A stretch of 64,000 bases of DNA from Haliclystus octoradiatus (Eukaryota; Cnidaria; Staurozoa; Stauromedusae; Haliclystidae). A program made the position numbers and the translations under genes. The stretch spans positions 12,938,110 through 13,002,109 of the forward strand of contig OU744452.1 in NCBI GenBank assembly GCA_916610825.1, in the 5' to 3' direction. Below are positions 38,421 to 62,822 of this stretch, in pieces. The notes below the pieces were generated by a model. The model was not told where the DNA came from and searched no databases. It saw only the letters and a program-made list of their open reading frames with translations. Positions within the stretch are counted from its first letter, which is position 1. Every line of letters starts with the position of its first letter.

Positions 38421-38493
38421 ATGAGTTTGAAAAAACTGGTTTTACTGTATTGGATTTCTACTTATTTAATTGTTTCATCGATGCAAACCTCAT
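38421..38493 (+). CDS. Channel gene exon 1: start and signal peptide
   Basis: Context caaaATGa; MSLKKLVLLYWISTYLIVSS has a basic start and a hydrophobic core typical of a signal peptide. Donor gtaagc, ends in phase 1 (T). It joins to 39822: T + CA gives Ser. Joining instead to the other acceptor at 39779 would create TAA at once, which excludes that choice. Confidence 0.75.
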
Positions 38494-41400
38494 GTAAGCT
38501 GGAATTAATTATTTTATACTTGAATTTCCTTATTCATAGTTAGTAAGTCGCATGTCAAGGATTGTACGCATTGATCTGAACTGACTGAATAATGATATGT
38601 ATTCAGTACAGAATATTCTACGTAGATTGTTCTTATTCTGTATATTGATTAATATCACGATAGACAAACTGTAAAATACTATAGTATTGGTAGAAAGATT
38701 TGTTGTCAATATTTTGTTTTACTACGAAGCTATCTATCTCAGGAATTATTTCAAAATTTTGATGACGGTTTATAAGATCCCATCAATGTTAATGAGTACT
38801 TGACTTGATCTACTATTACATGTTTCTTCTATAATCTGTGGATTAATTAAAGATGGAACGGACAAAAGAAAACAGCATTCGAATATTTGTTGCATTTGAA
38901 TCGCCGTACAAACCAAGGCCAATTTGCCATGAATTTTGAGAACATTGAGCTGCATTATGATATCAGTAATGAGGGTGTATCATCATTCGTATACGAAAAA
39001 CGTCTTTCCTCGATATAGAACAATGTAAATTTTTCATTTACTATCATATCGGATGATGATCGGACATAACCTGACAGAGGCATCCAAGAATTAAATGCCT
39101 TCGATCATGATGTTAGTCTGCACGCAGGCTGTCATGATGTCTGCTGAGCAACACACTGTCTTTACTAATTTTGATATACGTACACTAGAAACTTCAAGCC
39201 AGAAACATTTCAATGGAACCAACAGCGAAATTATATAGTATATTATACGATACATTTTTGTAAGAAAAATCAAGAGCGAATAGGCAGTATTACATGTACA
39301 GAAGAATCTTTTAACACACGTAAGACATAGTAATCGTAATCGTGATAGACGAAATAGTTTTAAAATAAACCCAACAATCAAGACAATACTTTCCATGCGT
39401 TAAATGTAGCCTATTTGGTTCCCGAAATGGTAAATTGGTAAATGGAATCGATTATATTCGTTTGGTTACTATTACGCGTGTTCTTCTATAAAAAGTAAAT
39501 TAGATATGTTGGTTGCTGCATGATTAAATACTAAAACTAAAACAACACATCACATGCTTCTAAGATTCTTTTGAGAATATCCACATTCTGATGAGTTATC
39601 ATTACTTGAAAAGAGTTCATTTATGGTGTATTATAGAAAATGAATTCCTGCAGAGCTAATTAAGATGAAACGGAATTAATAAACTTTTAAACGGGTCTTC
39701 GATATATTATCATCATCATCATAATTATCTATTTATAACCTCAAACTCAACTGCAAATCCAAATTGGTTTGTTTTACAGAATATCGAGTGAAATTTGTAA
39801 TATTTTTATTTGTTCACCTAGCATTCATCCAACCTGGAAATGGCTTAACAAGAGAACTCTACTATAACTTTTTGTATTCAAGTTTAAACCGTGCAGCCGA
39901 TCATGAAAACTATCCTGATTGGCCTGATGAATATACAAATATGGATAATTTCATAGATGATATCACATTGTCAGGGCAAGGCAGTTTTCTTGCATGTTAC
40001 AGAGCTCATTACATTGCCCCAGCAACAGGGGAATATCGTTTTACAGCCATATGTAATGATCAATGTCGTGTTTATCTTGGGAAATCCCCCAATCGATTAC
40101 CTGAAATTATCTACATCGCCAATCGGATTGAAGATAAAAGTAACTGGGAACAGTAGGTTTTGTCAGTTCCAATTTTCTTACTTTACCGTATTTCTCTATT
40201 CTATTTCACTAAGGGCCCTCCCTCAATGATGCAGTATTATACAGCCTTATAATCTCCAAGTCTGGAAGTTTCTTTTTCTATATACATGTTCTGAGTAAAA
40301 CTAACCACGATTAATGAAATAGACAAGATTGATTAATAAAAATACCCCACCACATTTACCAAATTATTCGAAAAGTTTCAAAACAAAACATTCGAAAGTT
40401 AGAATTGGTTCTAATGGAAATGTTGTCTTTTTACGAAATACTAGAACATAACGGAAACAACTATTTTTCATCGACCTATTTTATGCATCATGGCATGTGC
40501 AATTTGAGTACTATTTACTCGGGATGGGTCTATACTATTTGCGATAATTGCCCACTACTCCGGTAGTTTGAGCACTCTGGTATGACACAGATGGGTTTTT
40601 TTTCATTGTCCGGTACGATTTCTATCTGGTATAATGGAATTCCAAGGTTTATATTGCTCCATCATAAATAAAATCAAGGCATAATCCATCTTTAATGTTT
40701 GATCAGTTTAGTCACAGTAACCATTATCTAACGCCTTTTCAGATTGACAGTTATTGAAAATGAATTTTTCAATATTTTTGATTTTAGTTCACCACTGGAA
40801 CAAAATTCTGGATTGATATACCTTGAAGAAAATTACCGTTACTACATTGAAGTGTTACTATACGGTAGTAGTTACAAAGATTATGTTGCTCTTGGGGTCG
40901 AGTTACCAAGTAAAGAATTAATTAGACCACTAGGTAAAAATCAGTTGCTACGATCATTAGGTAAGTATAGTGTTACCATACTTCACGGGCTCGTGTCATT
41001 TTTACTGCAGAACTCTATTGACCTAATCACATTATCATATTGTCCATTTGCATAGCAAAATTGCTTGGATATGTGAGTTTATCACAAATGGAGGAGTAAC
41101 CGGACTTCAGATTTTATAAATTGTTACTCAAAACCCCCCGAAAGTCAACACATTAAGCATTGAATTTATCTAAACATCCTGATGGTTGATGGAAGGTTCC
41201 AGAGGAAATTTCATTATAAACAAATAAAAGCAGAAAAAAACGGTTGTGGCGTACGGCTGAAGCTTGACAATCAAGGCATATCTGCCATAAAATCTGTTAA
41301 AATTGATCTGTAGTGTCGCGGGTGAAACTGGGGTTGAGATCAGTAATGACCTCTATCATCATTGGTGCAATCTAAAAAGATCCAGTCCTTTGGTTAAATA

Positions 41401-44400: not shown

Positions 44401-47400
44401 ATGTTTTATCTTTGGGTAAGAAGGCATGCTCTTTATATTCAGTTGGGATATTCTACGGTCCACTGTGACTGGCTTGATCGTACAGGGAAACCTGTATATA
44501 ACGGCCAGCTATCATGATGGATAAATTTACCACTATATACAGGTGACCATTATATACAGAATGGATGCAATAGAAAATACTATTCAGATATTGCTAATTT
44601 GCTATTGTGACCACTATAGACAGGTGGTCGCTCTCTCTTATATAGCTCGATTTTGCGATGGAAGGTTTTCAGAGTAAGTGTCCATGAGAGTGGGCCTTGA
44701 TGTATGAGGGTGTGACAATGGGACATATATAGCCTTTGTAGATAGATGCACTATACACGGCACTGCCATTAGGCTTTATTTAGCTCCTCGAAATCGGCAT
44801 TGAAATTGTCTGCCTTTTATTGCAATACTATCACGTTTTTGATTCAATGTTATCACGGATTACTATAGTATTGTTACCAGAGAGTCTGAGGCCTAATAGA
44901 GCAATGCAATATATAAGAAGCTTTGCATCTTATAATATCCTCACATATGTGGCACCCGCGGAGTCCATAACTGGGTCTATTTATTGTGCGTGGTTTAATG
45001 TAAGCAGCAATTGATTCGCATCATTGCTAATGTCAGCTGGACCGAATGAATCGAATAGCTTTGTTCGAAGCAATAAATGAATGATTGAAAGTTATACAGA
45101 AGAATGATTGTCTTGCCATCCGTAAGACATCATTGTCTGACTTACTCCGAAACTTACGAATCGTTTCCCAATTCATAGCATATTGAAATTATTTGTATAC
45201 ATATCTTTCAGATGGTGATTTTACAATCATTGGATCTCCAGTTGTCATTTCTAATACATCAAGGAGTATCAATGTCACGTGGGAGGATATAACCATGCCA
45301 ACAAGAGATAATTTTATTTTAGATCATTACGAGGTTGTTTACCAGGCAATTGCATCGACTGATTTGCAAAGAAAAAGTTTGGCGGTGGGCACTAGAAATA
45401 TCGTTTTGGAAGGCTTGTCAAAATGGACTAGTTATGATATTTACGTGGTTTATTTTGGTAATATTTATAATATATTTGGTCGTTTGGTGACTATTAGAAC
45501 GCTTGAAGATGGTAAGAACTGTCCTAATATAATTCAATGTTAATAAAGGTTCCGAGCTGGGGTAACTCCTACAGGATGGCTGTACCGGGACGTGCCACTT
45601 TTTGGGGGTCCATATTGCAGCTAAAAAAAAAATTCAATTGGGAATTTCAGACTTTGGAACTTTTGGGACACCTTTTTGAATTTCTAGGGATTTCGAATGG
45701 CATCCCCTCCCGTCCATGCAGAGTTTATGCTTTTGAACACTCATTCGAACTCTTAGGTGCCAGCTGAAATATTGGTGATTAGCAATAATAAAACATCACG
45801 TGATAATTCAACAGTGGTAAAATTGTGTGCTTATCGGAAACCCCTTCCCACGTACACTGCGCATTTTAAGTCTCTCCAATCTTCTCTTTTTTGCAATGAA
45901 AGAGGTCTTCTTATTTCAGTTATTTGTGTTGTATCAAATTCTCAAATTCTTGTACTGCAACATAGATAACATTTAAATAATATAAATCATGTGTAATACA
46001 TGCACTGTCTAGATCTCAGTTTATTATTTATTTTGCAGTGCCAGAGAATTCTCCTTTATTTTTCACGGAGGAAATTACTTATTCAACAGCAGTAACATTT
46101 GTATGGAATGATGTTCCACCCCGTTTTCAAAATGGTCTTATTATTGGCTACGATATTGAGTACATTGCACCTGACCGGCAGGATGCTTCTTGGCAAACAG
46201 AAAAAATCGACGCAAGAGCTAATAAAGGCACTGTGAATAGCTTACATGAGTTCACTGTCTATCAAATAAAGATAGCTGCTGCAACATCTGTTGGTGCTGG
46301 AGTCTTTTCTGATATTGTCGTTGTCAAAACATTGGAAGATAGTAAGTCTGTGTCATTTCTTACTTGATTCTCCAAAAATGTGAGGGCATAAATTTAAAGA
46401 CGTTCTAAACTGCCCAGAAGCATCATGTTTGCATTACTTATGCATAACTAAAAAGTATTAACATCAGGAACTTTAGGTCAAAGTTGTAAGTGTTTTACTT
46501 CCCCCTGGTCGAAAATTATCCAAGAGTCTGAACGCCCGGGTTTTGTATAGCAATAACTAAAAGGCAGAAAATTGACTGGTGGTCTTTGCTCTCGGTAATG
46601 GAATATGCTGCATGATGCACATTACTTTTGGCTTGAGAAATGGCCATTAATTTATCAAATTTGAGCCCTCTGCATGTTGCGTGTGCCTTTATTGTACTCA
46701 ACTACTCATCTGAGCACACATCTATAATGTAACGTAAATATTTTAAAAATAAAATAAAAATTATAAATATGATACTACGTATATATCTCATTTATATAGA
46801 ACCATCTGCATCTACTCAAAATATAATCGCTGAAGCGGTTGACGCTACAACACTTAGAATCGCATACGAACAAGTAGAATTCGACGATAGAAATGGGATA
46901 ATCACTGAATACTCTATCCGATACAAGACTTCAAATTTTGCAAGTGAATTAAGAACAATTTCAGTAAATCATACAATTTTCTCTCTGGATATAACCTATT
47001 TGAGCTATTACACAATGTACGATATATCGGTTGCTGCATGGACTCGAATCGGAGTTGGTCCTTTTAGCGAACCAATACAACAGCGCACTAAAGAACACGG
47101 TGAGTCAGCTTTTACGTTTTAAAAATGTGATCTTCATCTTACGATCATGTCCTATTAAATTAAGCATGTAGCATAATCACATCTGCTGTAGAAAGATGAC
47201 GGTTGTGAATGAGGAAAAATTTTTCTGTAGATATTAAGATATGCTGCACTCTATTCAAAATATTGCGCTTTTCAACTATACATTTTCAATCCACATATCA
47301 TATACTTCAGACTCAGTCCTTGGAAAACGACGGAAACATTTGCACGATTTTTATTCCTTCGAAAATCCTTGTCGTTTAGCCACTCTTTCGATTTTGTCTG

Positions 47401-50400
47401 ACATGTTGCATCGTGTATTTTATTTGTCGCATTGTGTTTGATGCATCTGTGGAGCTTAGCTGCTGTTGACAAGACTGCTTCAGAACACGAAACACACACA
47501 TCAGACAAAAACAGATTTGTTGCGCAAAAGTTGCCCTCGTTTGCCCAGAGTTTTCAAGTTATATGTTGCTACGAAAACAGCACACCCTTATATAATAAAT
47601 ATGAATTGATTTTCCCTTCAGTTCCAATTCAATTTCATTTCAGCTCCAACCCGTGCCCCAGATAATGTCAACGGAGAAGTCCTCAGTGCAAATTCAGTTC
47701 GTCTTGAATGGAATGATATCTTTGAAGGTAACACACATGGTGAAGTGACGGCGTATTCAATTCGTTTTCAACGCCGTGATATTGAAGCTGAAATCAATGA
47801 AAGACAATTTGAAGAGCAAAATGCTGTACTTAATGGTTTGAATGAGTTTACATCGTATGGATTTTATGTTGCTGGTATTAATAAAGGAGGGATTGGTGTG
47901 TTTACGTCAATACCACGTGTATTAAAAACTCTACAAGGAGGTACGTTATAGCATGGTTATGATTGGAAACGGAAACAATGTGTTGACGTTCGATGTAAGA
48001 AATTGTTTTGTTACGGGATGTCTATTTAGTCACAGTCAGGTTAATTTTTTATGTATTGAATTGATACAAATAAGCTGTTCTTCATTAAATCTATAGGCTA
48101 TTAATTGATCAAGTGTTAGCCTTGTTCGACGTGAGGGCACAACTGCTGTTAACCTTCAATTATGATTGTCGAATTTATTTGCAATGCGGATGGCCGGCGA
48201 AATAACTTTTTTTCAAGATGAGACAAATTCAGTTTTACTTTCGAATTACCAGAATAGATTATATTACAATTATATTATCGTTTTTTCCTGATTGCAATTC
48301 CTGAAAACAGATTGCTGTTGAATTTATATTCATTTAAAAGAAAGGCCACTATAATTATTCTAGACTCATATAACACTGGTATCTTGATGACAGAGTGCCC
48401 CCATTCTGTGCGGTATAGGCCGTTGTCCCTCTTCGGTGCTTGGCATGTTTGTGTATGTGTGTAAAGGTATTGATGTCCTAACAGTTATCATGTAGTTAAC
48501 TAAAAACGTAATATTAGTATTATCATTATCATTGTCATCGTTTATGATTACTATTTCTTCACAGTACCTAGTCATTATCCCTTGAATATTACCGGAAATA
48601 ATGTCTCACGAAGTTCGCTAAGCGTAGCCTGGTTGGAAGTTCCATATGACGACAAAAATGGTATAATTACAAGTTACGAAGTGACATACTCAAGTGATAA
48701 TTCAACATGGTTTACACATATTATGGGGAATCAACTGCAACAATCAACAATAATTAACAACTTAAAGTTTTTCACATTGTATTATCTACGTGTATCTGCT
48801 GCTACATTTGTTGGGATGGGTCCTAAAAGCCAAGTTGTTACCGTTATGACTGGGGAATCAAGTAAGTAATTCGCTTCGCTTGTAAGTATTCGGCACGCTT
48901 CCAAAATAATGTCATTTTCCAAAAATACAATGACGTCAGTATACGAGCAAACGCAAAAAGTACGGGAAAACCGTAACAAAACAGTATTAGAAGAAGCAAG
49001 AACTCATCCTTCTTCTTTGTTACATGCTCAAATCTATCTTACTCAATTAAGTCTCTCTTCTCGGCCATTGTGAATGTTTCTTTAACAGTAGTTTGCCAGT
49101 AGTTTAATTTTATTCGGAAGTGTGCGAAATGAGAAGATAAATGCGGGAATAAATGAGAAATTTAATTCTATCAAATATAGTTTGTAAGAATATTTAACTT
49201 GATTCAAGATCCGTTTTTCTTATTTCGAGTTGAAAGTTATCTTTCATATCTTAAATCTTTCGAGGGATTTACTACTGCAAGTCCATATAAGAATCTTGAA
49301 CACACAACGCTAAAAAAATCAATGGAAGGGAGGATTAGCTCAGATGGCAGAGCAACCAGATTTCAGATATGATCATATCTGATCGGATATGATTCAAAGG
49401 TCAACTCAGTGCCTCAGCCAGCTGCCTCAGCCGTGACTTTATCTAAAACATCAAATTAGTATCATCAAGGATGGCGAATGGAATGACATCATTGGTCTTG
49501 TTGAAGAAGCCACTCATCTAGAAATAAAATAATGAGTGGGCTCCTTCGGCAGGGCGGTACCGTCTCAATTACAACTATATTTTTTATAAGTTGTAACTAT
49601 AAGTCCATCGAGTAATTTTATGTCACATCGTATATTTATTTTCATCGATAACTACTGTATTATTCTTCCTCAGCACCTAACAAAGCTCCAATGAACCTGA
49701 CACTCGTTCAATCAAGAAGAGACGGTCTTGTCATTTCATGGCTTCCGTTAGAATCAGAAGATCGACATGGAATTATTAGAGGATATTCATTATCATACAA
49801 ATTGATGTCATGGCCTTATGGCCCTTGGCAGAGTTTAAGGGTGGATGGTATAGGAACACTCTCAGCAATAATACCAGCTTTAGAGATCTTTTCAAACTAT
49901 TCAATCAAAATCAGCGCATTTACAAATAAAGGAGATGGCCCTGATAGCGAAGATATATTTGCAAGTACTGGAGAAGGATGTGAGTGACAAATACTGACTG
50001 TAAAATCTGTCACATGCAGAAACTCTAAAAGCCGTTGCTAGGAAATTATTCAAGGGGAAAATGTTGCGTATACTATCTTAAATTAGGAATGATATTTTGT
50101 TGACTTTCACTTGTAATGATTGAAGAAAAACGTTTTGCTTAACAAGTTTGATAACAAGACAATCGATAGAATATAGATTTAATTTTGCGACGTTTCGTCA
50201 TTGTACTAATGACATTTCAAGCGATTAAAATTAAAAGGATGGAAATTTAAAATACATGAATATTTATATGTTTAACTAGAAATTACCTTGAAACTTGTTA
50301 TCATATGCTGTAAATTAGCTAAGTCAATACATATAAATATTAATGTATTTTAAATTTCCATCCTTTTAATTTTAATCGTTTGAAAATGTCATATTAGTAA

Positions 50401-52238
50401 CAAGATGAAACATCGCAAAATTACGTCAATTCTATCGGTTGTCTTGTTATCAAAATGATTGAAAAAAAGGTTGAATATAACAATGCCATTAAAATTCCAT
50501 GCCTTAATTTTGTTGCAGCTTGGTCTTGGCAACTATAGGCTTTATAAATTAAAAATCATGCTCCCTTGGAAATTCTCAAAATTTCTTGAAAATATATGAA
50601 GATTTTATCCCCCTCTTTTCCCTTAGAAAAAGTAAGACAATATACCACATGAAAAACTCTGGGTGAGCTTATTGTGAAGGCATGAACATTGATTTGCCAG
50701 GGCCAATGTCAAGGGCTGTTGGAATATTTGGGATTTGGTCAGTCAATGAACAATTATATCGAATAGAAGGAGGAAAGCTACTACTTCAATCGCATGAATA
50801 TTACATCTTGGTCTTAATATAGGTTATGCGTCTTTCCATTCACAACATGCTGTAGATCAATGAATTTGAGTAATTTACATGATTTATTTATTGTATTTCT
50901 GAAACTTGGTATATTTTAAATTTTTCATTTTAAGTACCCACGATTTGGCCAGAAAATTTTACGATTGTAAATGTCACTGGAACATCAATATCACTCTCTT
51001 GGGCAGAAGTACCAACATCAAAAGAAACAAACGGAGTAGTAAGTACTTCTATCTCTTCTCTCCTACTTTATAAAAATGACCTTTAAAAAATTTGTACGCG
51101 CTAATCTCGAAAACATTGTAAAGAGATCCAGAACATCATTCGAAAGCCCTTTTTCGTGATTTAAACAAGGCTACATTTAATTCTGAAACTTCAAAACTTT
51201 AACTGAATTCGTCGTAAAATCAAAAAATCAAGTCATTTCATTTCAATCAAATCAATCAAATTCATTTGTAATTTCATTGCAGAGTGTTTACGAAAGTCGA
51301 AAAGCATGTTAAACAATATACAATTTATTCAAAAAATATTCAAGCCGACAAATTTAACGACATCGAGACGCGGCCCGAGGCGTGGACCCTGTTTAGGATT
51401 TTAGTGAACCACGAAATGTCGTCAAACATTCATGAAATATAATCGAATTTAAAATAATCTCTACTAACTAAATATATAAATCGTTGAATATACAGTAAAA
51501 ACAAGTTTTTCAAAATTCGGATTGTTTCAAGGTATGCCTGTATCGTCCTCATATGGCTCCGCCGGCGCCCCTGGTAACAGCAGTAACAATATTGGGCTGA
51601 AGGACCACAAAGCTCTCCGCGGTAGCTAAAAAAAAAGCTGCTGGAAGCAACCTTAGCATATTATATAATTAATTTCATTTCGTGATTGTATAATATACAT
51701 CGCATGATGCATACAGAAAATACCCGCTGAAGATTCAATAATCGGATGTCTGTGCTATAGAACTCAATATGCTCTGATCTGCAAGCTACTTCTACACATA
51801 TATGTATACACAATATTCTAGTACTCTGTTGTGTATGTATACGCAATATTTTAGTCGTATGTTGTTCCTCCCACTCTTAACTCTATCCCGATGAAGAGAA
51901 AATAGTGGATACCTGCATGACACTAGATATAGTAAGATGATTCAGAGAAATTGGGTCTTGGATTTGTTGGTCTTTTGTTGAGTTCGAAATGCTGCGTTGC
52001 ATCTAAGATTAGTAATGACTTATTTTCAATAGCTCATAAGAAACTGTGCGCCATTTACTTTGGATTATAAACATAACTTTTACAAGCATTTACATGACTT
52101 TCTTGCTTATAAAATGTTTTGAAAACTCCTTATCAAATTGTGTTTTGGTATGGTTTGGCTACTATAGCAGATTTGGCGTCAAACTCTAAACCAATCAGGT
52201 CGATTTTTGTTGTAATACAAAGCTTGTTGTTGTTATTA

Positions 52239-52273
<35 letters not shown>

Positions 52274-55200
52274 TTAAGTGCTGTGTCCTTTCATCCTATA
52301 GGTTCTTGGTTATACTGTTATCTATCAAATTGATGATTGCTCACCTAATCTCTATCCAGGATGTAATGAGAGTCTTGAATTAAATATCACTGTTGAACAG
52401 GAGACTGAAGTAAACATAACTGGGCTTCATGTATATACGATTTACAAACTTAATGTTTATGTAATGAATGGTGTTGGTATTGGACAAGCTTCACCATCTC
52501 TTATTATGCAAACGGAGGAAGGAGGTACGAAGACCATCACAGGGAGTTTTAATCCCTTCTAATTCCAAGGGGTCTTGCAAGGATAATTTATTTGATGCAG
52601 TGTCTGTTTTGCTTATTTTGAAAAAAAAAAATTGTCTCAAATGTCAACTTTGCAATATATTACATGAAGATGATGCAAGATATCTTTTAAGATTATTTTA
52701 CTCAATGCAATTTCAAAGTTGTGTTCGTAGTGAAATTGAGCTTACCCCGAGAGAAAGGCTTTAATGTAATAGATATATAGATTCTACAGAAGTGAAAACA
52801 GTCAGGTTCTATAGGGTTGGTTTATTTTACTATATAACAGTTCATTATTATATAAGTTGAAAATATGTTGCTAAAATGGATCGAAAGAGTAATTCTCAAA
52901 TCACATTTATGTTGCTATAACATATTTGATGATTTTTAAAGTTGAATTCTGCACTGATACTTTACTCTAATTACGTATGCATATATTCAATTATGGCTAT
53001 GCAATATATTCTGTAGGGTTTATTTTACTCATATCACTCAATTTTCACGTCTTGTTATACTCCAACTTAATAAGAACCTTTTACTCATATATGCAATAGT
53101 TCTTGTTACAGAAGCACGTTGAAAAATTAATACTATGTCTGGATTCTACAGCTATGATTTATCCCTCCCATTATTTTATTTAAATATTTCTATACGTATT
53201 ACGCGATAGGGAATTAATTATATAAAATGGAATTATATATATATACATTTCACCATGATTTTACTTGATAACAAATTCGTAATGAATGCTATATATGTCT
53301 TTAATTCGTATAGTACCTCAATCTGCTCCAATTAACATCGAAGGACACCCGATTATATCAAATGATACACACATCGGTGTATACTGGAACCCAATTCCAA
53401 ATGGTCTACGAAACGGAAAAATTATAGGATATCGTATAACATACCAGATAATCTATAACCAACGGCCTGATATCGCATTAATCGAAGCTAAAAAATATTT
53501 GTATAATTCAAGAAGTCGGAGGTCAATATATGAGACCGTATCCTATGGGAACATTTCATCAGTAGATGTAAACCATACTGCTTCTAATATAATCCTTGAA
53601 AATTTAACTGCGCATCATTGGTATCATATTACATTGGCTGGATTGACATCAGCTGGAGTTGGTGTTGGTTATACGTTTAATACATCTTGTACACAAAGAG
53701 GTATGACTTGTTTTCCTACACATTTATCTTAATTATGATTGGATACTTGACTTAATTATTCAGCAGTTGATTAGGCTTTTTTATAGCACTATATAGTATA
53801 TCTAACTTTGCTTTCTTCAAAATTTTCTTTCATATAGGTTTTCTACTTTTTTTCATGATAATTGATTTCTTGGATTCCTGATTGAATGGTAGCTCAGTGG
53901 CAGAGTGTCCTCACTTTGAATGGGAGGCCGGGGCTCGATACCTCGTCAGTGCACACATGTTTGTCTTTGTCTGTAAATGTGTTTGTGTCCCCCAATAAAC
54001 AAGAACTTTTGGGATGACTATCAGTGATCATGTAGTTAACTGAAAATGGATTATTATAATGCTATAGTAAATCAATAAATATCTCAATTAAGGGCTAGCT
54101 TACTTAACGGCAACATGAACACAGCACCAAACTTAATATGATTATTATATTAATATAATAACGTACATAGAGAAATGATTACTATTGATTTTTATGTACA
54201 CAAATGACATGGTTAACTATATTAAGTGTTCAATGCTTTTGTAATTTAATTCATTTTAATTTAAGTGTTTTTATACAAATGTTTATGTTCATATTTTAGA
54301 TATAATAGTTAATATTTGATTTCTTATCATATTCTGTTCTTATATTATATGTTTGATTTTGTTATTTGATTCAAAGGAACCTCCCAAAAATCATCTAAGA
54401 TGAATGAGACCTTTCCTCTATAAATATTAAATATTATACGATTGAGGCAAATATTGCACTATATACGACTATATAATCTATATAGCGGTCACCTGTCTAT
54501 ATAGTGCCTACGTCGGTATTATACGAAGAGCATTACTTTATTGAATCAAACCTGTGTACAAAGACCACCTGTCTATTTGGCCAATTGGTCTAGATTTTAG
54601 ATAGCTGTTTGTGTACAGGTTTCACTGTATATACCATTTCGCTCTGGGAAACTCCTATTTTATTTATGCCTTTGGAGCCCGGGGGGGTAACTTCCATACT
54701 TTGGGTATAGGGGGACGTTCAAATATTAAAGGGTACCTTTTTCAACATCCATAAAAAATCTTTTGGGGTATGCTTAGTCAGAATTTTTTTTGAGGTATCC
54801 TTTTGACGCCTTTGCAAGTTTTTCATGGTGCAAAAGAAATTTTGCATATGAAGTTTTTTTCTTTAATCTTTTTTGGTTGAATTTGCCATTAGTAAAAATA
54901 TATTTGGGGTATCTTTTTCATCATGTGAAATTTTTTAATGGTCATTCTGCCAAAGTTCCATTTGAACGACCCCGTCGAAGCGCAATGGAAGTTACCCCCG
55001 GGCTTTGGAGTGTATATTTATATATTTTGATCTGATGTTTTTATGATTGATTGACTTTTAGTACCATTGATTGCTCCTGACGTATTTATAACTGATAAAT
55101 ATTCACTGGAAAAGATATCTGTTTCATGGGGTACAATCAATGAAGACGATGCCCGAGGTACTGTGATTGGTTATTTAATCATTTATTATATGAATCGATT

Positions 55201-58200
55201 GAATGATAGAATTATACCACAGAAAAAGCATATGGAGAATTTGGTTGATTATACTGTTCATAATATTGAAATAACTAATCTTGAGAGTTTCAGTCAATAT
55301 TATGTATCTGTTGGAGCGGTTACATCTGCCTATGTTGGACAACTGTCGTTACCAAAATCTGCAGGTAAATATGATGTACCTTTTATACCACGAATGCAAT
55401 CAATATTTCAATATGCAATTAACAGATTGCGTAACTCTAGTAATGATTGGATTATCTTAATTTTGATCCAAGAGGGATTTCGGATTCGGATTTTGATCCA
55501 ACAATATGATAGTGCCTATAAGCCGTATTGTATAAATATCACTGAAAGAGTGATACCTACGTTTGGTTACTTTTAAATAGTTTTATTTATGCTTTGATAA
55601 CATGCAATGCAAATGTAATTCCATCGTTCTTGAAAATATAATATGGTCTTGAAATAGGAATGGAGCAAACTTTCTGGAATGTTCGACAAATTATCTTGAA
55701 AATTCTACAAACGATTAATTCCAGATAGAATTGCACTATAGAGTAGAAATTTTAATGACAGAAATATCGCAACAAAGGCAATAGATATTTTGTAAACATG
55801 CCAAACAAACATAATGTTAGGCTCCTGGGTTTGTGTATTACGTTAAATCTTCGACACGTTGAATAATGTGTAGTACATATACGTTAAAGTTAATAGAGAG
55901 TTGAATGGTTCACGTGTGAAGTTACATAAGACTACACCATAATGGCCATAATATCCACCCAGAAAATATGAAAACCCCAGGGGGTAACTCCACTAGGACA
56001 GCTATACGGGGACGTGCCACTTTCTTTGGGTCCATATTCCAGCTGAGAAAAAAAACCTTTTGAGTATGAGATTTCAAATTTTGGAGCTTTTGGGTATCCT
56101 ATTTTTGACTTTTTCAAGAATTTTTGACAAAATTTGCATAATTTTTGTCACTTAAAATCAATCAACCTGCTAGAACTTTTTGGGTAGCATCAACAGAATT
56201 TTTGGAACTTTTGGGTACTTCCCTTTTTTCCAAAGTGGCACTTCCCCGTCCCTAAAGAGCTGGAGTTACCCCCTCCCCGGGGTAAAACCGTTGTGCGACA
56301 ATGCAAATAAGACTCTAAACACTGCCATGATAATATTCGTTTCAAACCTAATTTTTAGGGTTATACTTCGAAATGTAAGTAGTTGTTATAAGTTTCAATT
56401 TTTTGTTTTTTCGTTTATACAGAAACTTGCGTTTGTGTGTCGACATTTTCAACTAATACATACGAGCTTAATCCATTCCTTACATCATCAAATGGGGCAA
56501 AAAGTCCAGGGGGGATATTACCAGGAGTTCTCCATGTTTTGGTTGATTTCTGTTGCGGGGAATGTAGAAATACACAACAATACAATATAAATTGGCAAAT
56601 GGATAATAACCAAAATACGTCATTGAAGAATTCACGTTCTTCTTTCTTGCGTGGTGATGCAGATTTTAGCTTGCCTCGTGTTTCTAAATCGTTGGATTTT
56701 GAAAATGGAAATTATATTCCTGTTTACAAATCATCAAGCGCATTGATCATTACAAAGAAACCCATTGAAATAGATGATCATTTCCCAGAAATGGTTGCAA
56801 TTGTGTTGGATTTATTAAGTGAAAACTGGAGGTTACTGCTGATGATACTATTACTCGTTATTGCTACTGGCTGCTTGATGTCGTTCTTGGTGAGCATATG
56901 CCTGTTATGTTTGACTTTATGTAACCAACTATATTCTTAAATTTGACTCTATGCACTTGAGCCGCTAACATTGTCTACCAGTTAAGCTGCCTTCGCCTGT
57001 TTCAACTTGATAACTATGGCACCTGTTCATGGCATAATTATGCATTTTGAAAATATCCAAGAAAATGCGCATATTGTGTACAGAAATTTTCATTTTAAAT
57101 AGTTCCATGCAAGCTATGACCGTTGAAAGTATTTTCACTCGCTGCTGATTTTAATTTCTAATTTGTATTGATGTTTCGATTTTTCTCCTCTTTATAGGAA
57201 AATGATTTCACTGGAGATGGTTACATTTGTATAAAAGATGGAGCACATCGTGGTATTTGGTGGTCATTCATCACAATTACAAGAATAGGGTGAGAAAACC
57301 AGAACACGACTTCGTATAGAAAGAAGGTTTTTGTGTTTTTCATCTATAAAACTTTAAAAGAATTTTAAAAAAATTATACCTAAATTACGCTCCATTTCGA
57401 ATATTTATCAATAGAAAATTCTACTGACAAAAATTTTTTCGAAGTAGTGATTTTGAATTTTGTTAATTTTTTCAAGTCTGAATGGGAGTATGAATATGTT
57501 TTTTCCTTTGTGTGGCATCTAGTGAGTTAGGTAGTAATGATTGATTAATGATTGAAAAAATAACAAAATAACAATTGACCCTGATGTTCACCACAAAATT
57601 GAATATTTACGTCACGAAAATAAACGCGCGGCAGAGCGGAGCGACTCCTTAAAACATCTCTCCGTTATTTCTTATCGGATTTATTATCGGATCGGATTCA
57701 AACTTTTACCAATCAATTTTTCAGTTGATATGCATCAGAATCAATCTTTTATTTTTTGAGTAGAATTTTTTATTTTTTGTTTTATTACGACTTTTCCTGA
57801 ATGTATATATGTGAATATTTTCTCTGCTTGTTTTAGATATGGAGATATTGTGCCTTCTTCAATCAAAGGAAGATTGTTAGCATGTCTCTGGATGTTAATT
57901 GCTATATTTGCCTACTCTTTTTATATTGGTATTGTTACTACTGCTATTATGAAGTACGCATATAAAGATGGGGATAACCGACGATCAACGAAAATTCTCG
58001 TAAGTGTTTTCAATGAAGGTGTGCTCGATCAGGGACGATGAAAAAAGTTTCGGAACCTGGGGATTATAGCAAATATGCAACTTAGAATTTTCTTTCTCTC
58101 CAATCGCAAAGTTTTTTTCAATATATAATCTCATATTCGCGTTTAAAATTAGTGGCAGCAAAATCTCGGTGGGTCTTTTTTCTGGCCCAGGGAACTTGCC

Positions 58201-61200
58201 CCGCTTAACTCCCCCTTTGGTGGTCCTGTGTTTGATAATATATATACAAATAATAATACTAGAGTCAATAAAGACACACCATTTCTTGACTCTATCATTA
58301 TTACAGTATTATTATTTACCGCTCTGTTGTTTACAAGTACTGTTCACCTGCCAATGTTTTAAATTTTCTTTATTAAATTTGAAACATATTATACAAAGTT
58401 TATATATATACATTGGAGCGACAAAAATACGGCAAACGAGAGAAATTAATTTTTAATTTGAAGTATGAATTTCGTCAACGTAGTCAGGATTCACGTGAAA
58501 GTAGTACATATTGATGGAGAGACCATATATAAGCAGTGTACTGTTTTTCCGTGGAGAGTGTAGGGTGGCATACATACATGGATGTTAAATATTATGGACT
58601 CAACAATGATGTGTGGCATCTTACTGATGGAAATCAAACCTCCCAGAGGTAAAATTGGATTATAAAACGGTGCGACGTATCGCTGAGCTTTCATAATCAA
58701 GGCCAAATTATCATATGAAATCTACCGAATTTGATGAGCAGTATTACTCCTGGTATCAACTATCATTCATTTTTAAGCGTTGCTCTTAGCGGCAACGAAT
58801 GCTAATCCTAGCCGCCTGCGTGAAGACTAAAACGTTTCTTTCTATAGAAACGTTTATTACACTATGTTCCGTAAGAAACTTTTTATAGTCTTCACGCACA
58901 TACATACTATAGCTAATCCTGAAGGAATGGTAAATTCGTACTGGTGCTATCGTACGTCTATGCTACAAGTACATGCATACATAGGACAGGGGGCCAACAC
59001 CGATCATCATTTGAATGATATTCCATTTTCCTTTATAACACTTCCTCGTGGAAGAGTAACATTCAAATAAACGATATTGAAAATTGGTCCCCTCATAAAA
59101 AATGTGACCTGATCGGTCGAAAGTCATATACATCATTTGTGGACTCTGATTTCTAATAGTTATCGGGGCACATGTTCCTAATGAATAATATGATAGATTT
59201 GTTGTATTTGTAGAAAGTGGCAATAGCAGAAGAAAGCCAACGATTTGCTGCAAGTAAATTCTGGAATGTTTCTTTTGGTGAGTACGTTTGAAGAGATAAT
59301 ATCAGATAGAGGAAACATATCTAAATATCAATTAACGATGAATGGATGCAAGCAATTATGTGATAGTAGATAATAGAGTGGTTCAGAGAGAAATACAAAA
59401 TCAGATGGATGAAAAATCTCTGTGTCTGCGCCTGGAGAGTCAATGATAATATGTTGTAGTACTTTCAGTTCGACGGACCAGTTGTATTGGACTTTTAGTT
59501 CGACGGACGGGCAAGCTGTATGTATAGGACCTTCAGTTCGACGGGCTAGTTGTAGACCTTTTAGTTCGACGGGTTAGTTGTATATGACTGTAGCTATCAG
59601 AAACTACCAAATGATGTGATTTCTTTGATAAATTATCAACTGAATTCGTAGAATGGAGTGCATTTTTATACAAAGCAGGACATTTTATAGCAATTTTATA
59701 CAATACAGGACAGGGAAAAGGGGACAAAGGGCTGAAAAAGGATTTTATAGCTGAACATATAATGTTGGCAGAGTGATAGCCCCATAATGCCATGATGTCT
59801 GCGTCGAAACTTTATCAGCATGCAGTATATTTGCATGAGATGAGTAATTACAGTTGGTGGAGGTCCTTTGTCTTCCGCATTGACTGAATATTGAGGAGAG
59901 TCCCTGATGATACTAGTAGCGTAGTTGTAACACCAAATTGACATCTCTATAGAGTATCCTACATTATTCATTGACATTGATCCGGATATTGATATCATTA
60001 TAATAGTTTATGTTTTTCTTAGTTTTGACATCATCCAATCAGCAGTCAGCAGCCTCTCTACTAATAAACAATGAGATCGATGCGATTGTAATAGACAGTT
60101 TAATGGCTTCAACGTTCGCATCATTGGTCGAAGAACCAGCATTTGAAAAAAGAGAAAATAAAGATTTCAAATTAACATACGGCATTCTATTTGATCGAAA
60201 TGCATCTCAACTTGCAACATGTGCTCGAAGGTTTATTGATCAAAATGAGGCTGATATCTATTCAAGACTGGCCAAAATACAATCTTTTCAAGCTGTAAGT
60301 TGACTTTCATTACCATCTGGTGATTTTTTTACCATCAGCTCGTTTCGTGTTCGGTGTGTTTACAACAAACATTCCCTATATAATGATATTATCTACTGCT
60401 TTTTTCATTGGAATGTTTTGCCTGCAAAATTTATTATCACAGTACTATTTGTAAAACGTTGTCTTACTGATTGAACATAGGGCTCAATGCAGAATATAGC
60501 AGAGGTTAAATAATAAAAGTCAGAGAATCAGACAGTCATGTTTGCTACTTAAAGTTTCACGCCGAGGCGATCATCAGGCAACAGATTGAATAGATTGCCC
60601 GATGATCGCCTCGACGTGAAACTTCAAGTAGCAAACATGACTGTCTGATTCTCTGACTTTTATTATTACAATACTATAAGTACAGACATGTCAAGCATCG
60701 CTGCCCTTTTATAGCAATCTACAGCTGTTAGCCATATTAAGTCATATTAATTAGTCATATGAATCCTGCTTATAAAACGAATATACTAATTTGTATGAAC
60801 CCTCTCCCGGGACCCCTCTCCCTCAGAACAGTTATAGGATTAATTTTATTTCGATCACTCGATTAATTTTAATCACTATTTTGTGTATCAGGGAGTTTTC
60901 GATGGTCCTTGGAAGTATGATGGCACTATCCTAATGCGGGGACTTATATAATGCGATGTGGGACCATGTTTTGATGTGTCCCGAATTCAAAAGTTCAAGA
61001 TATGACCCCTGCTGCAATCAGATTGGATCATATCCCCCCTATTCTATACGTATTATCAAGATATTATAATTAGAACTAAGATAGTGCTACTCAAAACTGC
61101 GATCTTAATCTAGTGATCTTACCTCCCCCCGTGTTTGACCGTTTGGAATATCAATCAGTTAAAATAGAAACAATCAAACGTTCTCCAACTTGACGATTTA

Positions 61201-62822
61201 TGGAAAGGCGTCTTCAAAAACATGAATTTTGATGGATTTATATTGTTTTTATCAAATAGGTATAAACGTCAAATATGTTGTTTTTAACTCAGAGATGTAA
61301 AAATATTTATTTGGTTCATTTTCATAGGATGCCCTTTTAAAAATATGTAAACTTTGCAATCTTGAGTAATCACCATTTTAGTTCTAAATCTTATTATAAT
61401 ATCTTCGTCTTAGATACATTTTATTATGTTTTTCAGTATCCAATATCAAATGCTTTATTTATTTTTATTATTTCAGATTGAGAAGAGGTCATCATTCCAT
61501 ATATTAGCTTTTAATCTTATCCATTGGAAAAGTAACATATTTCGTGTTGTCATTCCTAGTCTTATTGTTTTCTTGCTTGTATTTTATTTGATTGGAACTG
61601 TCTATCATTTCAGTCACTTTGCTAAAAGACAAAAGGGTAAGTATAGTCACGGCCGTAACTATATGTTTCTGACCAGGGGGGTTTTATCAATTTTGCCTGA
61701 AAAAAGGCGTGACATTGGCATATTTGATTGACTAGCTGCTGACATCAGACTTGAGTCCTGCTTTCTTTTTGCTGCCTCATTTTCATGATTAGAAAGCGTT
61801 AATTCACGTTCCAATCCATTAAGATCGGTAGAACACAGAAGTGAGACATGAAGAAGAAGTCAAAACATACATTTGGGAGCTTCAGTACTGCACCTTCAAA
61901 ATTGCACGATTTTGCTATTTTTGCAAAGATTGCTCGAAATATGAGTCAAATGTATGTCTAATATATTGCAATTCTATTCCATCTATATGAAATGAAGGAC
62001 AAATGGAGAAATGATATTAACAAAACCCAATTGTTTTTACTATACTGGCATACTGCCAATAGTGGCTGAGCTTGCTCGGCCGATAGAGTTTCTTTGACGG
62101 ACTGCTCTGATGTAGTGCAATCCGAAAGCCATTTTAACCGATATTGAATTCACTACATTTGGAATGACTATCCGCTATGCAATGAAATCCCTGTCCCAGT
62201 TTGGTTTAATTTAAATTACATTTTCCTGTGGTATGAAAAATATCTGCCGTATATATAATAATAATTAATTAAAAAAATTAATTGTATTGAGTGTGAACTC
62301 TTATACACACATGTATATGAAAGTGCTCAATGTTTTTTAGGACAGAGCATAATATAATATAGAGTATAAAACAGAGACGAGGCAAAGCCTTTTCCGTAAC
62401 TCGGAGTTTCACGCTTTTATTGCGATCTTCAGACGGTGATACTAAAAATATGATGTAGGTTGTAATGAAATGGCATAATGTTGATTTTATCTTTACTTTT
62501 AGTTCAAAAGAGAATTAGCAATGTTAAGGAAGAAATATTCTATTTAACAAATCAAAAGCAAATTTTTGTTGAGGGATTCATCCAAAAACTTTCAGAAAAT
62601 ATAAAGAAACGTGATAAATGTCATATTGATAAACGTATTAAGATGATGAAGGCTAGAGGTTCAAGTTTAATCTCAAGAAATATTGTTGATATATATGGAA
62701 TTCAACCAGAGAAAAAGATGGCAACAAAAAGAAAATCTCAAGACGATACTAAAACTGCACCGTCCCAAATTATACCATGGATAAATATAACAACATCAGA
62801 AGAAACTGAATCTGGTGCATGA
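38421..62822 (+). CDS. PA14-FnIII receptor channel: iGluR-like topology with a K+-type GYGD pore (1813 residues)
   Basis: Single-pass stalk plus ligand-gated-channel-like membrane part. There are 22 coding exons, each listed below; all have GT-AG borders and consistent phases, with no stop until TGA 62820-62822. Approximate domains: signal peptide 1-22; PA14 30-205 and 208-361; nine FnIII 362-1301; short S1-like half 1302-1430 (ADFSLPRV...LDFENGNYIPVY...LIITKKP); TM1 1436-1457; pore helix and filter WWSFITITRIGYGDIVP 1478-1494; TM2 1497-1525; S2-like half 1533-1654; TM3 1675-1699; basic tail 1700-1813. The order S1-M1-P-M3-S2-M4 is that of ionotropic glutamate receptors; GYGD is the K+-channel filter. 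The usual LIVBP-like amino-terminal domain is absent. A K+-conducting or modified channel at the plasma membrane is inferred; ligand and expression are unknown. Alternative reading: a non-conducting adhesion receptor derived from a channel. Confidence 0.85.
39822..40152 (+). CDS. Channel gene exon 2: first PA14 module, N-terminal part
   Basis: Acceptor tttgttcacctag after a long pyrimidine tract. Encodes GLTRELYYNFL...PDWPDE...SGQGSFLACYRAHYIAPATGEYRF...CNDQCRVYLG. The 'P-x-tGeYrFtaicnDqcrvYL' run is the PA14 core as found in fibrocystin-like proteins. Donor gtaggt, phase 2 (CA + A gives Gln). Confidence 0.85.
40743..40960 (+). CDS. Channel gene exon 3: first PA14 module, C-terminal part
   Basis: Acceptor gccttttcag, donor gtaagt. 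SSPLEQNSGLIYLEENYRYY, then IEVLLYGSSYKDYVALGVELP, matches the PA14 pattern 'l.aGkrYyiEvl...g...d.v.vgw..P'. Confidence 0.85.
41165..41475 (+). mobile_element. SINE family 2 copy, head missing
   Basis: Shares gatggttgatggaaggttcc, gacaatcaaggcatat, gtagtgtcgcgg...gagatcagta and the end gagcgcctttcggcaggacg with the other copies. Intron 3 of the channel gene. Confidence 0.6.
41902..42196 (+). CDS. Channel gene exon 4: second PA14 module, N-terminal part
   Basis: Acceptor atccactatag, donor gtaagt. Parallels exon 2: GILAEVFNDLSG...LRFPDQPD...GLRFTGCLQFPRSGLYKFWFQCEEKCQLKID. Phase 1 in, phase 2 out. Confidence 0.85.
42236..42377. mobile_element. Fold-back element, TCAGACAGTCAT family (decayed)
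   Basis: attgtaaaacgctgtcttat, a fragmentary centre and tatgactgtctgattctctg, as in 60442-60680. Intron 4 of the channel gene. Confidence 0.55.
43068..43261. mobile_element. AAAGGGTTACCACA fold-back MITE, intact
   Basis: The long arms aaagggttaccacatgcttg...gttgggagacac and gtgtctcccaacattttctc...gtggtaacccttt form a near-complete palindrome of about 195 bp. The second copy (43800-43922) has lost most of the right arm. Confidence 0.85.
43800..43922. mobile_element. AAAGGGTTACCACA fold-back MITE, internally deleted
   Basis: The left arm is complete to ctcggagctcgtgatt, then it jumps directly to gtggtaaccctttac. The deletion removes most of the right arm. Confidence 0.8.
44249..44415 (+). CDS. 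Channel gene exon 5: second PA14 module, C-terminal part
   Basis: Acceptor ttattatcag, donor gtaaga. ISGRSYCFVGLNVQK...FDMQISYDDEPWEYP. Frame T-GAA-ATA with GA from exon 4 gives D-E-I-F-Y; open throughout. Preceded by a 2-kb intron that contains a local duplication. Confidence 0.75.
44483..44640. mobile_element. Fold-back remnants with 'tatatacaggt' arms
   Basis: cctgtatataacggccagct, ccactatatacaggtgacca and ctatagacaggtggtcgctc are inverted or direct copies of one motif. Similar sequence is at 54446-54640. Confidence 0.4.
45212..45511 (+). CDS. Channel gene exon 6: FnIII module 1
   Basis: Complete FnIII in a symmetric phase 1-1 exon of 300 nt: INVTWEDI (B strand Trp), HYEVVYQAI (C), VLEGLSKWTSYDIYVVYFG (E-F with Leu and Tyr), TIRTLED (G). 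Confidence 0.88.
45553..45725. mobile_element. GGGACGTGCCACTTT element, partly decayed
   Basis: Starts gagctggggtaactcctaca, ggatggctgtaccgggacgtgccactttttgg, as in the intact copy at 55977. The right end is weak. Confidence 0.55.
46039..46341 (+). CDS. Channel gene exon 7: FnIII module 2
   Basis: Symmetric phase 1-1 exon, 303 nt: VTFVWNDVPP, GLIIGYDIEYIA, VNSLHEFTVYQIKIAAAT, GAGVFSDIVVVKTLED. All FnIII core residues are present. Confidence 0.9.
46800..47099 (+). CDS. Channel gene exon 8: FnIII module 3
   Basis: Symmetric phase 1-1 exon, 300 nt: LRIAYEQVEFDDRNGIITEY, SIRYKTSN, YYTMYDISVAAWTRIGVGPF. The tryptophan of strand B is Tyr here. Confidence 0.88.
47644..47940 (+). CDS. Channel gene exon 9: FnIII module 4
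   Basis: Symmetric phase 1-1 exon, 297 nt: APDNVNGEVLSANSVRLEWN, GEVTAYSIRFQRRD, LNGLNEFTSYGFYVAGINK, GIGVFTSIPRVLKTLQ. Confidence 0.9.
48373..48515 (+). mobile_element. SINE family 1, head decayed
   Basis: tgacagagtgcccccattct, then gcatgtttgtgtatgtgtgt, ending in gttatcatgtagttaactaa. The tail is nearly identical to 53883-54048. Intron 9 of the channel gene. Confidence 0.55.
48565..48861 (+). CDS. Channel gene exon 10: FnIII module 5
   Basis: Symmetric phase 1-1 exon, 297 nt: LSVAWLEVPYDDKNGIITSY, EVTYSSDNSTW, FFTLYYLRVSAATFVGMGPK. Contains several N-glycosylation sequons. Confidence 0.9.
49328..49575 (+). mobile_element. SINE family 2
   Basis: The head AGGATTAGCTCAGATGGCAG, GAGCAACC is tRNA-like and the box B region (gattcaaaggtc) is diverged. 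The end gaagccactcatctagaaat...cggtaccgtctcaattac equals the other copies. Intron 10 of the channel gene. Confidence 0.65.
49674..49979 (+). CDS. Channel gene exon 11: FnIII module 6
   Basis: Symmetric phase 1-1 exon, 306 nt: LVISWLPLESEDRHGIIRGY, SLSYKLMSWPYG, LEIFSNYSIKISAFTNKGDG. Confidence 0.9.
50150..50451. mobile_element. 302-bp fold-back element with about 120-bp arms
   Basis: The arm gataacaagacaatcgatag...aaaaggatggaaatttaaa...atatttatatg at the left is repeated in reverse complement at the right (catataaatattaatg...ccatccttttaatttt...gtcttgttatc) with few mismatches. Intron 11 of the channel gene. Confidence 0.85.
50935..51038 (+). CDS. Channel gene exon 12: FnIII module 7, first third
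   Basis: Acceptor tttcattttaag, donor gtaagt. FTIVNVTGTSISLSWAEVP, then SKETNGV. It ends in phase 0 inside the 'NG-V/I-I-x-GY' turn, so this is the only FnIII module split by an intron (1.26 kb). Confidence 0.8.
52242..52271. repeat. TA microsatellite next to a splice acceptor
   Basis: (TA)n run of about 30 bases, 30 nt upstream of exon 13. Confidence 0.9.
52302..52524 (+). CDS. Channel gene exon 13: FnIII module 7, rest
   Basis: Acceptor tttcatcctatag, donor gtacga. Continues with VLGYTVIYQIDDCSPNLYPG, then NITGLHVYTIYKLNVYVMNG and GIGQASPSLIMQTEE. The two Cys lie in an enlarged C-C' loop and could form a local disulfide. Confidence 0.82.
53314..53700 (+). CDS. Channel gene exon 14: FnIII module 8 with a basic insertion
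   Basis: Symmetric phase 1-1 exon of 387 nt, about 30 residues longer than its neighbours. Standard strands (IGVYWNPIPNGLRNGKIIGY; LTAHHWYHITLAGLTSAGVG) flank an inserted loop with YNSRSRRSIYE. The RSRRS run could be a furin-like cleavage site; this is inference. Confidence 0.87.
53883..54048 (+). mobile_element. tRNA-derived SINE, family 1
   Basis: The head TGGTAGCTCAGTGGCAGAGT and box-B-like GGGGCTCGATACC lead into cctcgtcagtgcacacatg. The body (gtgtcccccaataaacaa) and tail (gatcatgtagttaactgaaa) are shared with 15373-15552 (reverse) and 48373-48515. Intron 14 of the channel gene. Confidence 0.75.
54446..54640. mobile_element. Fold-back remnants with CAGTGAAACCTGTAC end
   Basis: The motif 'cctgtgtacaaagaccacct' and its reverse tgtttgtgtacaggtttcactg face each other, and 'ggtcacctgtctatatag' recurs. 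Probably a decayed Tc1/mariner-like MITE related to 44483-44640. Confidence 0.5.
54671..55010. mobile_element. MITE with CCCGGGGGTAACTTCCA ends
   Basis: The left end ggagcccgggggggtaactt and right end tggaagttacccccgggctt are inverted repeats. The interior is T-rich, with a repeated 'tttggggtat' motif. A sister copy is at 62893-63200. It lies just before exon 15. Confidence 0.8.
55062..55364 (+). CDS. Channel gene exon 15: FnIII module 9
   Basis: Symmetric phase 1-1 exon, 303 nt: KISVSWGTINEDDARGTVIG, YLIIYYMNR, LESFSQYYVSVGAVTSAYVG. Last module before the membrane part. Confidence 0.88.
55977..56275. mobile_element. MITE with GGGGGTAACTCC / GTGCCACTTT arms, intact
   Basis: The left arm of about 45 bp (gggggtaactccactagg...acggggacgtgccacttt) is repeated inverted at the right (aaagtggcacttccccgtcc...ggagttaccccc). 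About 300 bp, T-rich centre. Related pieces are at 20960, 28976 and 45553. Confidence 0.85.
56423..56889 (+). CDS. Channel gene exon 16: S1-like half-domain and TM1
   Basis: Acceptor gtttatacag, donor gtgagc, phase 1 to 0. A short S1-like segment (GGILPGVLHVLVDFCC; GDADFSLPRVSKSLDFENG; YIPVYKSSSALIITKKP) corresponds to the end of the glutamate-receptor S1 lobe. Then comes ENWRLLLMILLLVIATGCLM as the first membrane helix. The S1 lobe is much shorter than in animal glutamate receptors, and the ligand-carboxylate Arg is not at its usual place before the 'DF'. Confidence 0.8.
57198..57289 (+). CDS. Channel gene exon 17: turret, pore helix and start of the filter
   Basis: Acceptor cctctttatag, donor gtgaga. 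Encodes GDGYICIKDGAHRG, then WWSFITITRI and two bases of the first filter glycine. The next exon supplies the rest, so the intron splits the G of GYGD in phase 2. Confidence 0.87.
57837..57999 (+). CDS. Channel gene exon 18: GYGD filter and second pore-lining helix
   Basis: Acceptor gcttgttttag, donor gtaagt. YGDIVPSSIKGRLLACLWML, then IAIFAYSFYIGIVTTAIMKY. The layout WW-x3-T-x-T-x-x-GYGD-x-x-P-x4-G-K/R agrees with voltage-gated and two-TM K+ channels. The helix lacks the SYTANLAAF motif of glutamate receptors. Confidence 0.9.
58605..58760 (+). mobile_element. SINE family 2 fragment
   Basis: ttactgatggaaatcaaacc, tcccagaggtaaaattgg, gacgtatcgctgagctttca and taatcaaggccaaattatca follow the body order of 41165-41475. 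Intron 18 of the channel gene. Confidence 0.5.
58841..58906. repeat. Hairpin between SINE fragment and exon 19
   Basis: tgcgtgaagactaaaa and its partner ttttatagtcttcacgca enclose a second small stem (aaacgtttct with agaaacgttt). Confidence 0.65.
59214..59277 (+). CDS. Channel gene exon 19: 64-nt exon at the start of the S2 half
   Basis: Acceptor tgttgtatttgtag, donor gtgagt; phase 0 in, phase 1 out, exactly what exons 18 and 20 require. Without it the frame breaks at once (TTT TGA). Reads KVAIAEESQRFAASKFWNVS, which fits the beginning of an S2 lobe. Confidence 0.75.
60023..60294 (+). CDS. Channel gene exon 20: S2-like half-domain
   Basis: Acceptor tgtttttcttag, donor gtaagt. LLINNEIDAIVIDSLMASTF, then LTYGILFDRNASQLATCARR. 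The 'DAIVIDS' run matches the S2 motif holding the ligand-amino acidic residue (Asp at about residue 1588, as in NMDA receptors). The 'YGILFDRNAS' run matches 'yGia..k.Sp'. Confidence 0.85.
60442..60680. mobile_element. Fold-back element, TCAGACAGTCAT family, intact
   Basis: Arms of about 70 bp: taataaaagtcagagaatca, gacagtcatgtttgctac, then tttcacgccgaggcgatcat, mirrored as gatgatcgcctcgacgtgaa...ctctgacttttattatta around a loop of about 14 bases. Intron 20 of the channel gene. Confidence 0.85.
61477..61636 (+). CDS. Channel gene exon 21: third membrane helix
   Basis: Acceptor tttattatttcag, donor gtaagt. After the S2 end comes IFRVVIPSLIVFLLVFYLIG, a single hydrophobic span followed by HFSHFAKRQK, consistent with the glutamate-receptor M4 helix leading into the cytoplasm. 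Confidence 0.87.
61640..61945. mobile_element. Decayed copy of the 31276 element
   Basis: cacggccgtaactatatgtt, then ggggggttttatcaatttt and aattgcacgattttgc...gattgctcgaaatatgag match the parts of 31276-31500 in order. Confidence 0.4.
62310..62445. mobile_element. Diverged copy of the 35078 element
   Basis: aaagtgctcaatgtttttta, gagcataatataatatagag and 'gatcttcagacggt' follow the order of 35040-35190; the right arm is missing. Confidence 0.45.
62503..62822 (+). CDS. Channel gene exon 22: cytoplasmic tail and stop
   Basis: Acceptor tctttacttttag; VQKRISNVKEEIFYLTNQ and a Lys/Arg-rich stretch (IKKRDKCHIDKRIKMMKARG), then Ser/Thr-rich to TESGA and TGA. No recognised C-terminal motif. No clear AATAAA was seen close downstream. 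Confidence 0.82.

Follow-up and report, generated by a model that had tools for sequence, protein, structure and literature searches.

To our knowledge, a single rotifer protein represents the K+-signature ionotropic glutamate receptors (iGluRs) in animals. This protein, AvGluR1 from Adineta vaga, has the architecture of eukaryotic iGluRs (PMC12332018, PMC12226733) and is activated by glutamate (PMC12226733), and the passages of these papers used here mention no adhesive stalk. Bacterial channels of the GluR0 type, for example GluR0 (Slr1257) from Synechocystis, arrange the two halves of a ligand-binding domain (S1 and S2), the membrane segments M1 and M3 and a pore loop (P) with a GYGD filter in the order S1-M1-P-M3-S2 and, according to the part of the source used here, have no amino-terminal domain, M4 segment or tail (PMC6385376). 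Animal iGluRs (AKDF, NMDA, Epsilon and Lambda, as named in the part of an eLife 2018 survey available to us; PMC6307864) follow the plan S1-M1-P-M3-S2-M4, and the main text of that survey, to the same extent, does not mention fibronectin, potassium, GluR0 or AvGluR1. Here we analyze a 64,000-nucleotide stretch (the window) of the Haliclystus octoradiatus genome containing a gene at positions 38421-62822 of the forward strand that, with a probability of roughly 0.8, encodes a stalked receptor channel, in which two PA14-like and nine fibronectin type III (FnIII) domains precede a channel with iGluR topology and a K+-type pore loop, and which belongs to a multigene family. Haliclystus octoradiatus is a stalked jellyfish of the class Staurozoa. 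The host contig, OU744452.1, is chromosome 7 (21.35 Mb; part of the text of PMC9975415).

The gene has the S1-M1-P-M3-S2 order, the GYGD filter and an acidic residue in S2 in common with GluR0 and bacterial GluR0-like channels, but differs from GluR0 by an M4 segment, a tail, a long stalk and an arginine in the filter, and a binding arginine is not evident. With animal iGluRs it shares the complete S1-M1-P-M3-S2-M4 plan, whereas FnIII and PA14-like domains stand in place of the amino-terminal domain, the filter is of the K+ type and the Lig_chan match lies below the Pfam cut-off. AvGluR1 and the window gene are both animal genes with a pore of the K+-signature type, but no ligand site like that of AvGluR1 is evident here. 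A description of a K+-filter iGluR on an FnIII/PA14 stalk was not found in the open-licence literature, which is no proof of absence; an earlier note, made from the letters of the window, had likewise known of no protein with this architecture. The gene belongs to a family with at least 45 filter-M3 exons.

Splicing of 22 exons with GT-AG borders yields a single frame of 1798 codons that runs from the ATG at 38421 to the TGA at 62820-62822 with no internal stop. We set the start of exon 2 to 39822, because by our own reading an alternative upstream acceptor at 39780 creates a TAA at the join; this choice probably accounts for the difference from the product length of 1813 residues given in the earlier note, which the model does not reproduce. 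The 22 phase-consistent exons, the frame and its end proposed there do agree with our model, as does the domain order (leader, PA14-like, FnIII, S1-M1-P-M3-S2-M4-tail), in which the S1 and PA14-like parts are identified weakly. Chance open frames were rejected as an explanation, since paralogues repeat the same exon phases.

Exon 1 (38421..38493) carries the start codon and a hydrophobic segment that by eye resembles a signal peptide. The bulk of the stalk is encoded by exons 6-15 (45212..55364), in which the Pfam fn3 profile finds nine stretches (252 bits, E 3.3e-76, above cut-off), the number originally counted; eight of the domains occupy one exon each and one is spread over exons 12 and 13, and all outer borders are in phase 1. 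Between the leader and the FnIII domains lies a region which, when split in two, has PA14 as the best Pfam match of each half, with both scores below cut-off: 13.2 bits for the half encoded by exons 2 and 3 (39822-40152 and 40788-40960) and 19.8 bits for that encoded by exons 4 and 5 (41902-42196 and 44249-44415). Both halves have the exon phase pattern 1-2-1 and they match each other weakly (hhalign E 0.0073), so that the two PA14 domains proposed earlier stand as best matches and not at the level of the cut-off. PDB sequences yielded no match to the PA14-like part, and neither a window-built profile nor tblastn detected PA14 in the stretches L030-L053. A genome-wide PA14 scan returned two matches, both in other genes, and missed the window's own exons, making it too insensitive for counting PA14 in the family. 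In L054 and L055, PA14 matches lie inside single long open frames with a start resembling a membrane anchor, perhaps enzymes by eye. The FnIII domains carry 18 sequons; the PA14-like part contains none. Pfam found no LIVBP-type amino-terminal domain in the product at E up to 1 and fn3 with a weak PA14 instead, and the proposed replacement of the amino-terminal domain is supported by the model, where FnIII together with PA14-like domains occupies that place as a stalk within one gene.

The channel part begins with exon 16 (56423..56889), which by frame, hydropathy and family profile encodes an S1-like half with an ETCxC start and a CCGxC motif, followed by M1. Exon 17 (57198..57289) encodes the linker and pore helix and ends within a filter glycine codon (GG^), and exon 18 (57837..57999) supplies the remaining filter residues, (G)YGD, followed by M3. 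The S2-like half follows in exons 19 (59214-59277) and 20 (60023-60294), with an IDAIVID motif containing an invariant aspartate; exon 21 (61477..61636) supplies the end of S2 and M4 by frame and hydropathy, and exon 22 (62503..62822), delimited by its frame and comparison with the paralogue L049, the cytoplasmic tail and stop codon. Hydropathy places M1 at residues 1424-1442, M3 at 1488-1506 and M4 at 1663-1681, and Ion_trans_2 matches residues 1459-1511 (E 1.7e-10, above cut-off). With an amino terminus outside the cell, the predicted arrangement S1-M1-pore loop-M3-S2-M4 is that of the iGluR superfamily, its S1 element resting on the family profile.

Kinship with GluR0 is indicated by S2. 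A profile of the S2 half has bacterial GluR0 as its best match in the whole PDB sequence set (E 0.0037), and in profile comparison the S2 of the window family also matches that of bacterial GluR0-like sequences (18 of 21 loci plus the protein P0002; L020 and L021 were left out as broken in frame or not covered, and L015, labelled Bordetella parapertussis, by choice). Among the shuffle controls of the family-profile comparison, one scored 137.7 for reasons unexplained and was counted as reaching the observed value. The S2 aspartate is invariant in 17/17 family sequences (19 rows minus a fragment of L037 and a second L049 row) and in register with the bacterial aspartate. P0002, itself GluR0-like, is the second protein match of the channel query and covers 71 percent of it. 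Pfam searches with the S2 exons of the 17 members individually gave nothing convincing, and an S1 profile built from 8 of 20 S1 rows had a best E of 0.17 against the PDB, to unrelated molecules.

A relative, the protein P0001 (525 amino acids, from an ENA contig), is 27 percent identical over 75 percent of the window's channel part, with which it shares the motifs CCGxC, LEND and GYGDIVP, but it differs in having no FnIII or PA14 by Pfam and an intact TTIGYGD filter. Its alignment with three window exons was poor and was not used. A bilobed fold appeared for P0001 only, and only in predictions that included the bacterial rows; folded alone, P0001 gave no usable model. A search with residues 1287-1692 among 2938 proteins of the full build's length found none at E 0.001 or better, and an alignment of the window gene and P0001 retrieved 16 proteins within an E limit of 1, namely P0001 and others with Pfam domains of the K+- or ion-channel type, among which no further full-length relative was seen. 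The same alignment applied to bacterial and archaeal genomes gave 227 pattern-matching stretches and no relatives.

The window gene is a member of a multigene family and not a one-off. We searched the genome (261,861,806 bases in 33 contigs, the window lying on contig C8) with the pore and M3 of one paralogue and obtained at least 100 matches, 46 of which fitted the span rule for a filter-M3 exon; C1:39867580, a probable two-pore-domain K+ channel, was set aside from the family count. At least 45 filter-M3 exons, that of the window included, are located on six contigs (C1, C2, C5, C7, C8 and C10), in part clustered in runs, for example around 20.96-21.30 Mb on C5 and 22.07-22.15 Mb on C7. Twenty of them were read as paralogues besides the window, in stretches of 10 kb chosen from 86 Ion_trans_2 matches where the match begins near the filter; for the remainder only the span is known. 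Pore-helix and filter-M3 exons are present in all 20 stretches, and in every one the filter glycine codon is split by an intron behind its GG, matching window exons 17 and 18. An S1 exon, whole or partial, was recognized in 18/20, a downstream S2 exon on the same strand in 16/20, an M4 exon in 7/20 and a tail exon in 4/20. For six of seven chosen pairs (75 codons of pore and M3), the nonsynonymous rate (Ka) is 0.06 to 0.26 of the synonymous rate (Ks), with one Ks near saturation, whereas in the seventh pair Ks is saturated and gives no finite value; the low Ka relative to Ks is as would be expected under purifying selection.

The gene structure shows stalk and channel to be one gene. FnIII exons were found in nine of the 20 stretches (17 matches), all on the strand of the channel and all upstream of S1; several of the 11 stretches with no FnIII start near or after S1, so that absence there says little. 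The most telling paralogue is L049, in which the exon of the last FnIII domain and the seven channel exons behind it are separated by introns of 71 to 182 bases with the phases 1,0,2,0,1,0,1 of window exons 15-22, the equivalent of exon 20 has the same 272 bases as in the window, and the spliced frame is open to the stop. Its FnIII-S1 intron measures 182 bases and matches the window in phase, so that two genes could hardly be accommodated there. Where an ETC-like start of S1 is recognizable, its acceptor is in phase 1 (12/12).

Several observations weigh against the reading of the gene as a stalked, K+-type iGluR relative. A profile search of the product, which had been suggested as a check, placed fn3 and Ion_trans_2 above their cut-offs, but PA14 (22.9 bits for the whole product, cut-off 24) and Lig_chan (10.5 bits for the channel part, cut-off 30.8) remained below. 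S1 is recognized solely via the family profile. In amino-acid receptors an S1 arginine holds the α-carboxylate of the ligand and the S2 acid its amino group; the column of this arginine, judged by eye in a weak alignment, holds phenylalanine in the window, threonine in P0001 and no conserved arginine in the family. In both searches the 60 matches listed for the channel part among PDB sequences are K+ channels, and 1058 bases separate exon 15 from exon 16. Finally, the filter itself reads T-R-I-G-Y-G-D, with Arg1471 (codon AGA, 57282-57284) at the place of the filter threonine. The animal iGluR-like channel with a K+-type pore that the earlier note recognized finds support in a cnidarian gene with Ion_trans_2 above cut-off and GluR0 as the best PDB match of S2; its iGluR topology stands for S2 and for the order of M1, M3 and M4, and less firmly for S1 and Lig_chan; and its K+-channel filter stands as to GYGD, but not as to the threonine, whose replacement by arginine it did not mention. 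Because the Lig_chan match is below cut-off and the usual amino-terminal domain is missing, we do not call the gene an ordinary animal iGluR; the channel would probably work like one of the GluR0 or AvGluR1 type, but its amino-acid site is putative, and the name glutamate receptor should be avoided.

The filter arginine bears on the window copy in particular. The threonine is kept in 20/20 paralogues and in P0001, whereas the window copy, with R-I-G-Y-G-D, departs from the pattern T-x-G-Y-G, and K+ conduction by the window copy itself is doubtful because Arg1471 stands where all 20 paralogues have threonine. We give an even chance to the view that other members are the working K+ channels, this copy itself being a subunit with a modulatory or non-conducting role, or a gene in early decay. 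Against this view, all 22 exons of the window copy are open with canonical borders, and arginine is compatible with conduction at a neighboring pore site, the Q/R site of edited AMPA receptors, where it reduces conductance as well as the entry of Ca2+. More likely than a plain K+ channel, the window copy would be a subunit that acts together with other members and is modulatory or of low conductance, or else a channel of altered selectivity.

A second alternative concerns gating: the PA14-like and FnIII domains might bind matrix, glycan or another cell and thereby move the S1-S2 clamshell, with no small ligand involved. We regard this as possible but rather unlikely. The adhesive stalk is present and the arginine that binds amino acids is not evident, so that the clamshell may bind a ligand other than the common amino acids or be moved by the stalk; against stalk gating, the invariance of the S2 acid suggests a retained binding site. 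Adhesive modules of other kinds seem to occur in related genes. Upstream of the L049 gene, Fibrinogen_C (twice) and Laminin_G_3 score above cut-off and F5_F8_type_C below it (L050, 2368-8981; L052, 8286-8639); the assignment of these exons to the L049 gene relies only on strand and proximity, and together they possibly form one very large receptor gene. Upstream of the channel gene L046, two TSP_1 frames exceed the cut-off (L051, 5282-8748, reverse strand). The TSP_1 exons were not confidently assigned to L046 because the same strand carries, between the FnIII exons of L053 and L046, a weak match (27.1 bits, cut-off 28) to the end of a glycosyltransferase family 18 protein. Contact gating as a general mode is also countered by members that seem to be short and free of FnIII: in P0001 the Pfam matches are confined to the pore, and L022 (409-1722; C5, about 27.97 Mb, outside the 20), with an intact TTVGYGD and with filter and M3 in one frame uninterrupted by an intron, shows by eye a leader-like start shortly before S1 and no FnIII. 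In the simplest history, a short ancestor of the GluR0-like kind would have gained its adhesive modules later.

The K+-channel matches in the PDB would also suit a two-transmembrane K+ channel pore placed on an adhesion protein with no kinship to glutamate receptors. This is highly improbable and was rejected, as S2 matches GluR0 first in the PDB set and bacterial GluR0-like S2 besides, P0002 ranks second among the protein matches, and an extracellular amino terminus would place the pore loop on the cytoplasmic side. Least probable of all, an FnIII adhesion gene wrongly joined to a neighboring channel gene, which the distance between exons 15 and 16 and a join read from genomic sequence alone might allow, was rejected on the short phase-matched intron of L049, the same-strand FnIII exons upstream of S1 in other members, the shared phase 1 acceptor that splits the codon at the ETC-like start of S1 and the mid-codon beginning of window exon 16.

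Elsewhere in the window, positions 16574-17815 of the reverse strand hold a single long open frame for a rhodopsin-family G protein-coupled receptor (7tm_1, E 9.3e-38), and an Rfam scan of the 64 kb gave no matches. A dispersed repeat, by eye perhaps a short mobile element, recurs at about 54680-55030, 55980 and 62900 of the window and at about 4035-4295 of L050, with similar translated frames at 54778-55032 and at 4035-4295 of L050.

For the stalked receptor channel, we propose an extracellular stalk, from which the chain would pass inward through the membrane at M1, so that the pore loop would face the cytoplasm like that of iGluRs and GluR0. Four subunits would surround one pore, and the S1-S2 clamshell would pull M3 open. 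The family probably descended from an iGluR with a GluR0-like K+ filter that acquired adhesive modules; members with an intact filter would pass an inhibitory K+ current upon binding a cue, and contact with matrix or glycan could be coupled to membrane potential. Very tentatively, and as somewhat less probable than gating by the stalk, we put forward a contact-gated inhibitory class on the iGluR plan, in which 45 or more GluR0-derived K+-filter channels of staurozoan jellyfish, many on adhesive stalks, would read surfaces or neighbors and silence the cell, with filter-arginine subunits tuning the current. The reading domains would be PA14-like and FnIII, joined in other members by fibrinogen-like, F5/8C, laminin-G or TSP1 modules.

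Cells could use a stalked channel of this kind to convert contact with a surface, or a chemical cue, into an electrical signal. The family makes it possible to test how contact, as opposed to amino acids, can drive the clamshell of an iGluR and how the K+ filter was kept, altered (as by Arg1471) or lost, and its members may serve as natural inhibitory channels gated by ligand or contact. With dozens of members in a cnidarian, it would demonstrate that an ancient K+-type pore persisted and diversified in a phylum that branched early, in combination with adhesion modules.
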